DNA of 38,557 nt, from assembly GCF_003611635.1 (NCBI RefSeq), contig NZ_RAVZ01000049.1, positions 1-38,557 of the forward strand, written 5' to 3'. Below, in pieces: positions 4,036-9,875 of the stretch (its first letter is position 1; every line of letters begins with the position of its first letter). A program made the translations under genes and the position numbers. The notes below the pieces were generated by a model. The model saw only the letters and a program-made list of their open reading frames with translations. It was not told the DNA's origin and made no database searches. The DNA comes from Corallococcus terminator (GTDB lineage: Bacteria; Myxococcota; Myxococcia; Myxococcales; Myxococcaceae).

Positions 4036-4152
4036 TCGGCCAGAAGCGCGAACCCTAAGCTTCTCCGATTGACACAGGGCCGGCAGGCAGGCTTGCTCGC
4101 CCGAAATCTCAAACGAATTCAGGGGGGTATGCGCCCCCCGAGGCCGGAGCCG

Positions 4153-5412
4153 ATGCCCAAGAATCTACTGATCGCTGACGACTCGCTCACCATCCGCAAG
4201 GTGATCGGGATGATCTTCGCGACGGAAGACTTCCAGGTGACCGCGGTGGACAACGGGCTGGACGCCATCACGCGGACGCGCGAGCTGCGCCCGGACGTGG
4301 TCCTCGCCGACGTGATGATGCCCGGCAAGAGCGGCTACGAGGTGTGCGAGGCGCTCAAGAGCGACCCCTCCACCCAGGCCATTCCGGTGCTGCTGCTGGC
4401 CGGCACCTTCGAAGCGTTCGACGAGAACCGCGCGAAGGCCGCCCGGGCGGACGACCACATCACCAAGCCCTTCGAGAGCCAGATCCTCCTCGACAAGGTG
4501 AAGGCGCTGGTGGGCCAGAAGTCCAACACGATGCCCGCGTCCGCCGCGACGCGCGTCTTCCCGCAGTCGACCGCGCCCGTGCCGCCCCAGGCCGCCGCGC
4601 CGCAGCCGCCTGCCGCCGCGCCTCCGGGTGTGCGTCCTCCCGGGCCGGGTGCGCCGCCTCCGGGCGCGCGTCCTCCGGGCCCCGGTGCGCCGCCTCCGGG
4701 TGCGCGTCCTCCTGGGCCGGGTGTGCCTCCGCCTCCGGGCATGGCGCGTCCGCCTCCGGGTGCTCCGCCTCCGGGTGCGCGTCCTCCTGGGCCGGGTGTG
4801 CCTCCGCCTCCGGGCATGGCGCGTCCGCCTCCGGGTGCTCCGCCTCCGGGTGCGCGTCCTCCGGGTCCTGGCGTGCCTCCGCCTCCGGGCATGGCGCGTC
4901 CGCCTCCGGGCGCTCCGCCTCCGGGTGCGCGTCCTCCGGGTCCCGGCGTGCCTCCGCCTCCGGGCATGGCCGCGCGTCCTCCCGGCCCTGGCGCTCCGAA
5001 CATCCCGGGTGGGTTCCCGCGTCCTCCCGCCGGGGGCACGCCGCTGCCGCCCTCGCACGCGCCCGCGGCGGTTCCGCCGGCCGCCCGCGCACGGGATCCG
5101 TTCGGTCTGGGCGCTCCCGCCGCTGCGCCTGCCGCCGTGCAGGCCCGCCAGGAGAGCATCCGCATCGAGGACTCGCTGCCCGAGCACAGCGGCGCGGAGG
5201 AGATCTCCCTCGACATCGGTGGGCCTCCGCCGGCCGCCACGCCCTCTCGCCGTCCCGCGGATGGGGGCGAGGCCCTGCTTCGCGAGGCCCTGTCGAAGGC
5301 CTCCCGCGAGGTCATCGAGAAGATCGCCTGGGAGGTCGTACCGCAGTTGGCGGAGACCATCATCCGGCAGGAGCTCGAGCGGCTCATCAAGGACCGCGAG
5401 ACCCAGCATTGA
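4153..5412 (+). CDS. romR: RomR, polarity response regulator for gliding motility
   Basis: A 419-residue protein with the RomR layout. An N-terminal receiver (1-115) starts MPKNLLIADDSLTIRKV and has its phospho-acceptor at Asp53 in VLADVMMPG, the position known for M. xanthus RomR. A long Pro/Gly/Ala linker (about 130-330) follows, then an acidic stretch and a helical C-terminus that reads EKIAWEVVPQLAETII and ends KDRETQH. In M. xanthus RomR marks the lagging pole, acts with RomX and MglA/MglB to set leading-lagging polarity, and receives Frz input. The ATG at 4153 is chosen because GGAG lies just upstream and the receiver begins there; in-frame upstream starts at 4069 and 4129 would add an unlikely tail. 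Length matches the known protein. The linker is encoded by tandem repeats listed separately. Confidence 0.9.
   Translation: MPKNLLIADDSLTIRKVIGMIFATEDFQVTAVDNGLDAITRTRELRPDVVLADVMMPGKSGYEVCEALKSDPSTQAIPVLLLAGTFEAFDENRAKAARADDHITKPFESQILLDKVKALVGQKSNTMPASAATRVFPQSTAPVPPQAAAPQPPAAAPPGVRPPGPGAPPPGARPPGPGAPPPGARPPGPGVPPPPGMARPPPGAPPPGARPPGPGVPPPPGMARPPPGAPPPGARPPGPGVPPPPGMARPPPGAPPPGARPPGPGVPPPPGMAARPPGPGAPNIPGGFPRPPAGGTPLPPSHAPAAVPPAARARDPFGLGAPAAAPAAVQARQESIRIEDSLPEHSGAEEISLDIGGPPPAATPSRRPADGGEALLREALSKASREVIEKIAWEVVPQLAETIIRQELERLIKDRETQH
4714..4968 (+). repeat. 75-bp tandem repeats encoding the RomR proline-rich linker
   Basis: Three complete 75-base units start at 4714, 4789 and 4864, and a fourth partial copy starts at 4939 and diverges after about 30 bases. 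Each unit encodes 25 residues beginning GPGVPPPPGMARPPPGAPPP. Copies differ mostly at third codon positions. Shorter related GARPPGPGAPPP blocks precede the array from about 4620. The in-frame period means copy-number change would alter linker length without a frameshift. Confidence 0.93.
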
Positions 5413-5465: not shown

Positions 5466-8400
5466 ATGACTGACACGACTGAACTGTCCAAGGCCTACGA
5501 GCCCTCCGAAGTGGAGGCGCGGTGGTACAACCACTGGCTGGAGCGCGACTACTTCCGCGCCGAGCCCACTTCCGCCAAGCCGCCGTTCAGCATCGTGCTG
5601 CCGCCGCCCAACGTCACGGGCAGCCTGCACATCGGCCACGCGCTCACCGCGACCATCCAGGACATCCTCACGCGCTGGAAGCGCATGAGCGGCTTCAACG
5701 CGCTCTGGCTGCCGGGCACGGACCACGCGGGCATCGCCACGCAGATGGTGGTGGAGAAGGAGCTCAAGAAGTCCGAAGGCAAGAGCCGCCACGACCTGGG
5801 TCGCGAGGCGTTCCTCGAGCGCGTCTGGACGTGGAAGGGCAAGTACGGCGCGCGCATCGGTGAGCAGCACCGCTACCTGGGCGCGTCGCTGGACTGGAGC
5901 CGCGAGCGCTTCACCATGGACGAGCAGTCCTCGGCCGCGGTGCGCGAGGTCTTCGTCCGCCTGTACGAAGAGGGCCTGATGTACCGGGCCCAGAAGCTCA
6001 TCAACTGGTGCCCGTCCTGCCGCACGGCCTTGAGCGACCTGGAGGTCGAGCACGAGGAGAAGAACGGCTCGCTCTGGCACATCCGCTACCCGGTGAAGGG
6101 CACGGACCGCGCGCTCACCGTCGCGACGACGCGCCCGGAGACGCTGCTGGGCGACACCGCCGTCGCCGTGCACCCGGACGACCCGCGCTACGCGGACCTC
6201 GTGGGCAAGAGCGTGGCGCTGCCGCTCACCGACCGCGAGATTCCGATCATCGCGGACGGAGAGCTCGTGAACATGGAGTTCGGCACCGGCGTGGTGAAGG
6301 TCACGCCCGCGCACGACTTCAACGACTACCAGACGGGCCTGCGCCACAAGCTGCCGATGCTGTCCATCCTGGACGAAGCGGCGCGGATGACGAAGGACAC
6401 CGGCAAGTACGCCGGGGTGGACCGCGTCGAGGCGCGCAAGCAGGTGCTGGCGGACCTGACGGAGCTGGGCCTGCTGGAGAAGGAAGAGCCCCACAAGCTG
6501 AACGTGGGCACCTGCCAGCGCTGCACCACGGTGGTGGAGCCGCGCCTGTCGCCGCAGTGGTTCATCAAGATCGAACCGCTGGCGAAGCCGGCCATCGAGG
6601 CGGTGGAGCAGGGCCGCACGAAGTTCGTCCCCGAGTCCTGGACGAACACGTACTTCCACTGGATGCGCAACATCCACGACTGGTGCGTGAGCCGCCAGTT
6701 GTGGTGGGGCCACCAGATCCCCGCCTGGTACTGCGAGGCGTGCAGCCCCGCGGGCGAGGAGCGTTCGCTGGACAGTGCGGCGGTCATCGTGTCGCGCACC
6801 ACGCCGGAGTCCTGCCCGAAGTGTGGCGGCACGAAGCTGGTGCAGGACCTGGACGTGCTGGACACGTGGTTCTCGTCCGCGTTGTGGCCGTTCTCCACGC
6901 TGGGCTGGCCGCGCCAGACGCCGGAGCTGTCCACGTTCTACCCGACGTCCGTGATGGAGACGGGCCACGACATCATCTTCTTCTGGGTCGCCCGGATGAT
7001 GATGATGGGCCTGCACTTCATGGGCGATGTGCCCTTCCGCACCGTGTACCTGCACGCGATGGTGCGCGACGAGAAGGGCGAGAAGATGTCCAAGGTGAAG
7101 GGGAACGTCATCGATCCCCTGGACGTCATCCTCGGCGCCAAGGTGGACGCGCTCCAGCCGTCGCTGCGCAACCGCTTCCCGCAGGGCATGCCCGCGTTTG
7201 GCGCGGATGCGCTGCGCTTCACGCTGGCTTCGTCGACGCAGCAGGGCCGGGACATCAAGCTGTCGATGGACCGCCTGGGTGGCTACAAGGCGTTCTGCAA
7301 CAAGCTGTGGAACGCCAGCCGCTTCGCCCTGATGAACATGGGCGACTTCAGCCTGGACAAGACGCCGCTGGAGGGCCGCACGCTGACGCTGGCGGACCGG
7401 TGGATCCTCTCCCGGTTGCAGAAGGCCACGCAGGAGACGAGCGCATCGCTGGAGGTGTTCGGCTTCGCGGAGGCGGCCTCCACGCTGTACCAGTTCCTGT
7501 GGGCGGAGTTCTGCGACTGGTACATCGAGCTGGCGAAGGGCTCGCTGTACGGCGAGGACGCGCAGGCCAAGGACACCACGCGCGCGGTGCTGGTGTACTG
7601 CCTGGATCGCATCCTGCGGCTGATGCACCCGTTCATGCCGTTCATCACCGAGGAGATCTGGCAGAAGCTGCCGATGTCCCGGCCCACGGAGAGCATCTGC
7701 ATCGCGGCGTACCCGGAGCCGGATGCGGCGCGCGTGGATGCGTCCGCGGAAGCGGAGATGGCGCCGGTCATCGCGGCCATCGAGGGCCTGCGCACGCTGC
7801 GTGGTGAGAGCAACCTGCCGCCGTCCGCCAAGGTGAAGGCGGTGGTGCAGAGCCCGGATGCGACGACGCGTGAGCTGTTGGAGCGCTGGCGCGCGTACCT
7901 GATGCCGCTGGCCGGCCTGTCGGAAGTGCACGTGGGCCCGCCGGGCGCCAAGCCCCCGCAGGCGGCGGCGTTCGTCAGCGGCAATCTGGAGATCTACGTC
8001 CCGCTGGCGGGACTCGTCGATTTGGACGCGGAGCGCGACCGCCTGAAGAAGGAGATCGTCCGCGCCGAGCAGGAACTCACCAGTGTGCAGCGCAAACTGG
8101 ACAACCCGAGCTTCGTGGCCCGTGCTCCGCCGGACGTGGTGGCGAAGGACAAGGCCCGGGTCGAGGAGCTCCAGGAGCGCACGGTCAAGCTGCAGGATCA
8201 CCTCCAGCGCATCGCCCCGGAGCCCCCCATGTCCGAGCCCGAGACGCCGTCGCCGTTACCGGTCAGCACCGAGTCCGAGACCTCCACCCTCGCGGCGTCC
8301 GAAAGCGCGCACGTGAAGGTGGCCACCGAACCCAAGGCGTCGAAGGACGACGTGAACCTGGGCCAGGAGCTGAAGGGTGAGATGGAGGCGGAGGCCGCCG

Positions 8401-8984
8401 CGGAGGTCGCCCAGACGGCCGACCCCGTGGTGGAGGACGCGCTCAACAAGCTGCGCGAAGGCACCAAGGAAGGGTTGTCCGCCGCGGATCACCACGACCT
8501 GGGCGTCGCGTACATGAGCATGGGCCTCGTGGACGATGCGATGCGCGAGTTCGACCGGGCTAAGGAGGGTGGCGACACCCGCGAGGCTCCGGAGGATTCG
8601 GAAGGCACCGTGAAGAAGTCGGCGGGCAGGAAGGCCGCGTCCGCGAAGAAGGCTCCGGCCAAGAAGGCTGCGGGCGCGAAGAAGGCTCCGGCCAAGAAGG
8701 CGGCGGCCGCGAAGAAGGCTCCGGCCAAGAAGGCGGCGGCCGCGAAGAAGGCTCCGGCCAAGAAGGCGGCGGGCAAGAAGGCCCCGGCCAAGAAGGCCAC
8801 CCGGGGCAAGCCGACCGCGAAGAAGGCGGCGGGCAAGAAGAGCGCCGTGAAGAAGGGTGGTGCCCGCAAGGCGCCGGCCCGGAAGACCTCCGCGAAGACG
8901 GCGGGCAAGAAGGCCGGGGCGAAGAAGTCCCCGGCGAAGAAGACCACCCGGGGCAAGCCGGCGGCCCGCAAGGCCCGTCGGTAG
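5466..8984 (+). CDS. valS: Valyl-tRNA synthetase with TPR-like and H1-like C-terminal extension
   Basis: Charges tRNA-Val with valine in the cytoplasm. Class I signatures are clear: HIGH at residues 55-58 in [11 protein letters not shown], and KMSKV at 540-544 in place of the usual KMSKS. The CP1 editing domain, anticodon-binding domain ([17 protein letters not shown]) and C-terminal coiled-coil arm ending near residue 918 ([10 protein letters not shown]) are all present. The protein then continues in frame for about 250 residues. First comes an acidic linker from Met922 ([10 protein letters not shown]), then a TPR-like helix pair at about 994-1035 ([18 protein letters not shown]), then from about 1048 a Lys/Ala/Pro tail of [11 protein letters not shown] units like histone H1 or bacterial DNA-binding tails. 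At 1172 residues it far exceeds the usual length of about 900-950. The ATG at 8229 (Met922) has GGAG upstream, so the extension may also be made separately. nadC follows after 9 bases. Confidence 0.96.
8643..8774 (+). repeat. 33-bp tandem repeats in the Lys/Ala-rich tail of valS
   Basis: Four consecutive 33-base units start at 8643, 8676, 8709 and 8742. Each encodes [11 protein letters not shown] or [11 protein letters not shown]. Looser versions continue to the end of the gene. The encoded residues resemble the basic tails of eukaryotic H1 and of bacterial H1-like proteins. Confidence 0.92.
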
Positions 8985-8993
8985 GAGGCGGAA

Positions 8994-9875
8994 GTGCAGC
9001 AGGACTATCTCGATCGGCTCATCGCGCTGTCCCTGGACGAGGACCTTGGCGCGGCGGGGGACGTCACCTCGCTGGCGGTGGTCCCCGCCGATGCGGAGGG
9101 CAGTGGGGAGCTGGTCGCGAAGGAGCAGATGATCATCGCCGGCCTGGACGCCTTCGTCCGCGTCTTCCACATGGTGGACGCGGAAGTGGAGGTGGAGGTC
9201 CTCAAGCAGGACGGCAACGAAATCAAACCGAAGGTGGTCGCGGCGCGCGTCCACGGCAAGCTGCGTTCACTGCTCGCCGCCGAGCGCACCGCGCTCAACC
9301 TGGTGCAGCGCGCGGCCGGCATCGCGACGCTGGCCCAGCAGGCGATGACGTCCGTGCGGGGCTCGAAGCTGCGGGTGCTGGACACGCGCAAGACGCCTCC
9401 GGGCATGCGTGGGCTCGCGAAGCACGCGGTGCGCATGGGCGGGGCGTCCAACCACCGCTTCGGCCTCTTCGACGGCATCCTCATCAAGGACAACCACATC
9501 GCGGCGGTGGGCGGTGACATCACCGAAGCCATCCAGCGCGCGAAGTTGAACGGCCCCCGCCTGGTGAAGATCGAAGTGGAGGTCACCAACTTCAAGCAGC
9601 TCGCGGAGGCCATCGCCGCGGGCGCGGACGTCGTCATGTTGGACAACATGGACGACGCGCAGATCCGCGAAGCCGTGAAGCTGGCGGCCGGCCGGGTCCC
9701 CATCGAGGTCTCCGGCGGCGTCACGTTGGACCGGCTGCCCCGGCTGGCGAAGCTGGGCGTGGACTTCGTGTCGATGGGCGCGCTGACGCACTCGGCGCGG
9801 GCCATGGACCTGTCGCTGGAGATCCAGACGACGAAGAAGTCCCCGCGCAAGCCCCGTGCTGCGGCGCAGGGCTGA
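8994..9875 (+). CDS. nadC: Nicotinate-nucleotide pyrophosphorylase (quinolinate phosphoribosyltransferase)
   Basis: A 293-residue enzyme that converts quinolinate and PRPP to nicotinate mononucleotide in de novo NAD synthesis. Family motifs are intact: AERTALNLVQRAAGIAT, then DTRKTPPGMRGLAKHAV, then GASNHRFGLFDGILIKDNHI (substrate and PRPP contacts), and later IEVEVTN, VVMLDNM and EVSGGVTLD. The GTG at 8994 is preceded by TAGGAGG, which overlaps the valS stop, so it is almost certainly translated from the same message as valS. A strong hairpin at 9905-9942 follows. nadA and nadB are not in the window. Confidence 0.96.
   Translation: MQQDYLDRLIALSLDEDLGAAGDVTSLAVVPADAEGSGELVAKEQMIIAGLDAFVRVFHMVDAEVEVEVLKQDGNEIKPKVVAARVHGKLRSLLAAERTALNLVQRAAGIATLAQQAMTSVRGSKLRVLDTRKTPPGMRGLAKHAVRMGGASNHRFGLFDGILIKDNHIAAVGGDITEAIQRAKLNGPRLVKIEVEVTNFKQLAEAIAAGADVVMLDNMDDAQIREAVKLAAGRVPIEVSGGVTLDRLPRLAKLGVDFVSMGALTHSARAMDLSLEIQTTKKSPRKPRAAAQG

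Follow-up and report, generated by a model that had tools for sequence, protein, structure and literature searches.

Results

A valyl-tRNA synthetase with an in-frame basic tail

The valS gene of Corallococcus terminator encodes a valyl-tRNA synthetase (ValRS) that continues in frame into a long extension comprising an acidic part with a single TPR-like hairpin and a Lys/Ala/Pro-rich tail that resembles histone H1 in composition. Comparison with relatives inclines us, without great assurance, to the reading that ValRS and tail form an obligate fusion, that a free tail protein is probably made as well, and that the tail has affinity for RNA, DNA or other polyanions. The window referred to below is the whole stretch of DNA analyzed, 38,557 nucleotides of contig NZ_RAVZ01000049.1, in which the following features were located.

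5466-8984, + strand: valS open reading frame, 1172 amino acids, without internal stop
5466..8216, + strand: ValRS core including the arm (residues 1-917), from Pfam domains and TIGR00422
8019..8213, + strand: C-terminal tRNA-binding arm (residues 852-916), PF10458 Val_tRNA-synt_C, profile positions 1-65 of 66
8219..8222, + strand: GGAG, Shine-Dalgarno-like, from sequence; anti-Shine-Dalgarno duplex -5.8 kcal/mol
8229..8231, + strand: in-frame internal ATG (Met922), presumed second start, with GGAG six bases upstream
8229..8984, + strand: tail open reading frame from Met922, 251 amino acids, 25.6 kDa, pI 10.2, in frame with valS
8352..8384, + strand: conserved 11-residue motif; L48 and E51 invariant in 31 aligned sequences
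8424..8567, + strand: helix 70-82 and one TPR-like hairpin 89-117 (extension numbering), related to the SgmX C-terminal TPR region
8592..8981, + strand: Lys/Ala/Pro-rich, H1-like basic tail, residues 1043-1172, 130 amino acids, net charge about +46
8994..9875, + strand: nadC, the next gene; TIGR00078 300.7 bits, cut-off 198.4

The core of the protein is a ValRS by curated thresholds, with Pfam domains PF00133 (residues 20-600), PF08264 (644-793) and PF10458 (852-916) above their cut-offs and a TIGR00422 score of 1132.7 bits against a cut-off of 612.1. The stop codon follows residue 916, the end of the arm, only after a further 256 codons, in agreement with the roughly 250 open codons of a preliminary description of this DNA made from the sequence alone. 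Because no stop separates ValRS from the tail, every complete ValRS made from valS is predicted to carry the tail. NadC-like open reading frames, judged by eye, also come next in relatives. Upstream of valS, at 4069-5412 of the window, lies an open reading frame in which long Pro/Gly-rich repeats come after a response-regulator receiver domain.

The extension stays acidic as far as residue 1042 (net charge about -16 over the first 121 residues from Met922), and the basic tail that follows is 32% Lys and 33% Ala, so that the acidic linker and Lys/Ala/Pro tail described earlier were both recovered. The tail is H1-like in composition only; it scored 35.9 bits with Pfam HC2 (PF07382; cut-off 40) and 40.4 bits with NCBIfam hist_H1_lk_Burk (NF038053; cut-off 80) and belongs to neither family by those cut-offs. 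Among named species, the closest matches to the non-basic part of the extension were C. praedator (97%), C. llansteffanensis (92%) and C. sicarius (91%).

A long form of ValRS is already on record at NCBI under a title that makes no comment on the tail. The model in question, NF011492 (PRK14900; long-form valine--tRNA ligase, 1044 positions), scored 1818.8 bits with the window protein against a cut-off of 1783; the best stretch aligned window residues 1-1121 with model positions 3-1029, and the tail alone aligned with positions 912-1028 (E 3.2e-13). The cut-off was passed by 57 of 145 class genomes and by 0 of 14 controls. Passing is no proof of a tail, since one genome with a frameshifted tail (G050) passed on positions 3-895. 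NF011492 thus covers the long form into the tail; it is a naming model, and its title is silent on tail, fusion and internal start.

Distribution of the fusion

ValRS was searched in 193 Myxococcota genomes and gave matches in 174. Loci were taken from 131 of these, and 130 were analyzed, namely 127 class loci and 3 outgroups from other classes; because the loci are related, counts over them are not independent. Families carry the codes of the genome collection used (f1 to f20); we take f1 to be Myxococcaceae, f2 Anaeromyxobacteraceae and the class Myxococcia. An in-frame extension was present in 114 of the 127 class loci, which bears out the ValRS-tail fusion that had been proposed. The tail was separate or frameshifted in four (L052, L069, L091 and L026) and absent from seven, and two (L082 and L083) were unclear. 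In the 108 fused loci where the stop lay within the stretch taken, the extension measured 73 to 445 amino acids (median 243), and in all 108 it kept its basic charge, the last 70 residues carrying +18 to +40.

An artifact in the window, whether a sequencing error or an overlooked stop, was considered and rejected, since the same junction is open in all 16 loci of the genus to which the window belongs and so many class loci have the in-frame extension. In the three outgroups the frame stops 2 to 6 codons past the arm, and ValRS open frames from the same phylum span 892-992 codons among the 20 matches listed, which include these outgroups. Relatives with a stop between the two parts, for which the preliminary description had suggested looking, do exist (L052, L069 and L091) but stand beside a widespread fusion, and so speak of its origin rather than refute it. 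The junction in the window's group is only 4 codons long, so that the absence of a stop there tells little about selection for fusion.

The seven class loci without a tail indicate that it is not essential throughout. A NadC-like open reading frame, judged by eye, lies directly 3' of valS in five of them (L076, L077, L081, L085 and L086), and L128 and L130 were assigned by the position of the stop.

A second collection, of 62 loci, was gathered for the TPR alignment by way of two short peptide patterns. All 45 loci with a ValRS arm were fused, among them that of Myxococcus xanthus AM003 (L157); the other 17 were weaker matches (E 1e-11 or worse) with no ValRS arm in the locus. One record of this collection, BNCN01000007.1 (L156), is titled Comamonas sp. 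KCTC 72670 and holds a Myxococcus-like valS with a tail; the title is probably wrong.

Several genomes deserve separate mention. Three much smaller f1 genomes of 2.1-2.7 Mb (G137, G101 and G032; loci L066-L068) have a basic ValRS extension from which the TPR motif and a Shine-Dalgarno-backed start are absent, L067 being cut off after 44 codons. G133, G134 and G158 (f9, genus g43, about 2.9-3.0 Mb) gave no ValRS match at E 1e-100 and none to the C-terminal third of the window ValRS, and their best NF011492 matches were at E 2e-67 to 4e-64; their ValRS may have been replaced or be very divergent. A second ValRS-like copy, 52% identical, occurs beside the tailed one at G146:C4:442536-445286 and G185:C24:152887-155634.

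A presumed internal start at Met922

The ATG at 8229, with its GGAG six bases upstream, was found as previously noted. A Shine-Dalgarno-like word followed by an in-frame start codon, ATG or a GTG in its position, is present in 79 of the 114 fused loci, spread over 19 genera and 5 families (f1 56, f2 14, f3 7, f7 1, f8 1). The peptides at the start vary by family (PEPPM, KPEGTM, ARRDSM, GGHM, EDTM, EEGM), and the Shine-Dalgarno word and start are kept. Where an f1 locus has Pro as the first codon past the arm, this Pro is encoded by CCG in 56 of 57 loci with ATG or GTG at codon 5 and in 10 of 24 that have neither there. Eight genera (56 loci, L026 included) were selected because they keep the start; in them codons 1-2 are CCG GAG in 56/56, codons 3-4 vary, and the start codon is ATG 53 times and GTG 3 times. 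Codon choice as sole proof of a Shine-Dalgarno sequence was rejected as weak, because in the arms CCG accounts for 73% of the Pro codons, and GAG for 91% of those for Glu; the contrast with start-less loci and a test of fourfold-degenerate columns were added for this reason.

In the 8 genera, the third base was invariant in 4 of 70 fourfold columns with a near-invariant residue, and two of these four are the adjacent Ala-Pro codons at the Shine-Dalgarno word; in the same test conservation reached 98% or more in 9 of the 70, and GAG was the only codon in 5 of 14 Glu columns. The signal was weaker in three genera alone (45 loci), where 17 of 100 fourfold columns were invariant. ATG contexts were also compared, without selecting on a Shine-Dalgarno word, between the first 26 extension codons and the ValRS arm region. 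An anti-Shine-Dalgarno duplex of -9 kcal/mol or stronger preceded 26 of 58 distinct extension ATGs and 12 of 306 arm ATGs (Fisher p 5e-15, a value that ignores relatedness); the contrast shrank at a laxer limit of -5.5 (42/58 versus 72/306). Counted as 26-codon windows at -9, the figures were 31 of 114 for the extension and 12 of 1141 for the arm region.

Taken together with strong Shine-Dalgarno sequences in f2 (down to -12.1 kcal/mol), f3, f8 and several f1 genera, these comparisons suggest that the mRNA probably also yields a free tail protein of about 26 kDa in most lineages. The earlier proposal of a separate H1-like product from the internal start thus gains comparative support across the class and is weak in the window's own genus, where the duplex is only -5.8 kcal/mol; it is weak also in genera g2 and g6. 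No Shine-Dalgarno-backed start was found in 35 of the 114 fused loci; the tail is nevertheless retained in all of these, and the TPR motif in 19. Fusion alone suffices in these 35 loci, where the tail would, as far as the search shows, be made only as part of ValRS.

TPR-like hairpin and its relation to SgmX

The "TPR-like pair" of the preliminary description is TPR-like, but it amounts to one TPR-like repeat, a pair of helices, standing behind two further predicted helices. A structural model built from 31 sequences (mean pLDDT 72.3, pTM 0.39) has helices at extension residues 48-62, 70-82, 89-102 and 105-117, and only residues 91-120 have block mean pLDDT values over 90 (91-95). Pfam TPR_2 was detected in 29 of the 31 aligned members at E <= 0.1; the match in the window protein has E 0.048 and 14.2 bits, below the cut-off of 27. 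Profile matches of the module in the PDB were to MamA (2.5e-7) and designed TPRs, which also took the top ranks in Foldseek, where 0 of 235 matches reached E <= 0.001. The motif occurs in 75 of the 114 fused loci (f1 73, f7 1, f9 1) and is absent from 14 of the 87 fused f1 loci.

The TPR hairpin is under purifying selection. Over 119-120 pairs from 16 loci (20 were chosen and 4 dropped for lack of the cutting motif), dN/dS was 0.127 for the TPR, 0.275 for the arm, 0.469 for the middle and 0.749 for the linker; the value for the basic tail, 0.415, comes from a doubtful alignment.

The tail open reading frame aligned with positions 827-925 of the SgmX model (E 1.8e-6), and the modules of three relatives also matched SgmX (E 2.1e-9 to 2e-4). 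The score of 26.5 bits, against a full-length cut-off of 1800, denotes a related segment only and not an SgmX protein. The genome's own SgmX-like protein (L004), which matched SgmX positions 332-1065 with 1123 bits against the same cut-off over the 714 amino acids compared of a longer frame, is 33% identical to the TPR module over 91 amino acids. SgmX is described as having 14 TPRs, of which the last three bind MglA-GTP (PMC7668184, PMC11580455). By its position, the ValRS hairpin would be the counterpart of the first of these three. The likeness lies in the C-terminal TPR segment; SgmX has 14 repeats whereas the ValRS extension has one, which is a slender basis for proposing that the two have a partner in common.

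Origin of the fusion

Two f10 genomes, which alone represent the class beyond the window's order in this sample, have a separate Lys-rich open reading frame after valS. Its start overlaps the end of valS by ATGA in one (L069), and in the other (L091) its ATG has GGAGG six bases upstream. Inside the window's order, valS of the f1 locus L052 is closed by TGA, and GGAGG-AACG-ATG starts an open reading frame of 140 Lys/Arg-rich residues; the junction of its tree neighbor L055 is similar, but open and fused. Given a standalone Lys-rich frame after valS in three genomes, the extension probably arose by fusion of neighboring genes. The simplest account of the distribution would be that the neighbors fused and were later split in L052, though the order may have been the reverse, with the fused state earlier. 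The free protein of L069 showed no homology to the TPR module (hhalign probability 0.4%), and that of L091 a weak likeness (hhalign 42%, E 2.6e-4).

A tree was built by a quick method from 92 of the 130 rows, 38 near-copies having been removed by hand. It gave 3 changes between fused and separate, 7 between start kept and lost, and 4 each for tail and TPR presence, all of them rough counts, as the outgroup was not one clade and several long branches met. In L026 (G050, genus g6), on a single contig, a frameshift in a run of C just past the internal ATG puts the TPR and tail in another frame; this is either natural variation or a sequencing slip.

Lys/Ala-rich sequences elsewhere in the genome

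We asked whether Lys/Ala runs are a general habit of this genome and rejected the idea, since the exact KKAPAKKA word is rare; the count covers this one wording, from which other K/A-rich stretches, such as that of L003, differ. The back-translated pattern occurs at 10 places, 5 of them in valS and 3 in one open reading frame on contig C376. The remaining two are the N terminus of topoisomerase I (contig C45, L201), which is Lys/Ala-rich, and a free, Lys/Ala-rich open reading frame of 90 amino acids (contig C68, L202) beside one with below-cut-off similarity to RqcH. Contig C444 (L003) carries a free Lys/Ala-rich open reading frame of 197 amino acids with HC2 similarity below cut-off. The genome also holds two isoleucyl-tRNA synthetase genes, on C7 (L213; 819 bits) and C777 (L212; 873 bits; TIGR00392 cut-off 621). 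The C7 frame is unusually long, exceeding 1200 amino acids and running off its locus; no Lys/Ala tail was seen in the complete open reading frame of L212.

Discussion

Comparison with known systems

The ValRS-tail protein is a synthetase with an appended domain. Pfam holds a model of CAAD, the domain appended to cyanobacterial synthetases; CAAD is not among the 12 Pfam families found at E <= 1 for the window protein, which is thus not a CAAD-bearing synthetase. The nearest studied case that we found is the cyanobacterial ValRS that bears CAAD, as it is described in PMC4893482, the likeness being a bacterial ValRS with an appended localizing domain. CAAD is a membrane anchor, whereas the window ValRS combines a TPR hairpin with a basic tail and has retained an internal start. 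The same source reports that cyanobacterial GluRS probably gained CAAD by fusion of neighboring genes. Human LysRS, whose disordered appended domain is described as binding nucleic acids (PMC6213541), is a candidate for a similar mode of action, but its extension is N-terminal and eukaryotic. Lys/Ala/Pro-rich basic tails also occur in AlgP and PhaF (PMC9239181) and in Hc2 (PF07382), but these are free proteins. The KPAA tail of AlgP, linked to DNA and polyphosphate granules in the account of PMC9239181, sits behind a predicted helical part, as in the window protein. A literature search of titles and abstract openings, with most subscription journals outside its scope, found nothing on the ValRS extension among the papers listed.

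Interpretation

In the reading that we lean toward, a small gene between valS and nadC, encoding a Lys/Ala-rich, H1-like protein, would have joined valS in frame early in the class. Conservation suggests that most lineages retained its original ribosome-binding site and start codon within the joined reading frame, so that a free tail would be made as well. Judged by composition, the basic tail would probably bind polyanions of any sequence. On ValRS it may bind tRNA and rRNA, raising tRNA capture or holding the enzyme near ribosomes, polysomes or the nucleoid; the free tail may bind DNA or RNA. As is usual of its family, the TPR hairpin probably binds a protein partner, a contact that would come on top of those of the tail. 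The suggestion made earlier that the tail tethers the synthetase to RNA, DNA or the nucleoid is plausible in light of its composition and of analogues such as AlgP.

The internal start and the tail could each be read otherwise. The tail may be solely a domain of ValRS, with the Shine-Dalgarno word and ATG a fading relic of the separate gene, as the 35 fused loci lacking such a start and the weak Shine-Dalgarno sequences of the window's genus, g2 and g6 would suggest. We hold this unlikely, though worth serious attention, in view of the strong Shine-Dalgarno sequences of f2, f3, f8 and several f1 genera and of the excess of CCG where a start is present (56/57 versus 10/24), within a linker whose dN/dS is 0.749. 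Conversely, the free tail may be what matters, as a small nucleoid protein that became attached to ValRS when a stop was lost, a side effect that is tolerated. The separate frames of L052, L069 and L091, the strong internal Shine-Dalgarno sequences of several families, and the Lys/Ala-rich sequences of topoisomerase I and the 90-residue frame in the same genome fit this account, but the start-less fused loci keep the tail, often together with the TPR motif, and we regard it as improbable.

The ligand of the tail may instead be polyphosphate, and not DNA or tRNA, in which case ValRS would be placed at granules or condensates, as the association of the Lys/Ala/Pro-tailed AlgP with polyphosphate granules suggests (PMC9239181); AlgP is, however, another protein, with KPAA repeats, and this version seems to us very improbable. 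Scarcely credible is a neutral, low-complexity run-on without function: the wide range of extension lengths and the dN/dS of 0.415 for the basic part, doubtfully aligned, speak for it, but the basic charge is kept in every complete extension and the TPR is under purifying selection. As an elaboration of the fusion with a kept start, one gene might give two proteins class-wide, a tail-tethered ValRS and a free H1-like protein with an SgmX-type TPR hairpin, tying the level of a nucleoid- or RNA-binding protein to that of the synthetase; the hairpin might dock both on an SgmX partner such as the polarity GTPase MglA. This is a long shot; if true, the dual-product reading would connect cell polarity with translation and the nucleoid.

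Eukaryotes, and cyanobacteria with CAAD, are known to have appended domains that position or adjust a synthetase. In the present case an H1-like tail is found on an essential synthetase in most sampled members of a bacterial class, and the likely intermediates are visible as a separate gene, a fusion with a kept start, and a fusion alone. The class offers a testable case both for the route by which adjacent genes may turn into a dual-product fusion and for the question whether synthetases in bacteria are anchored to ribosomes or the nucleoid.
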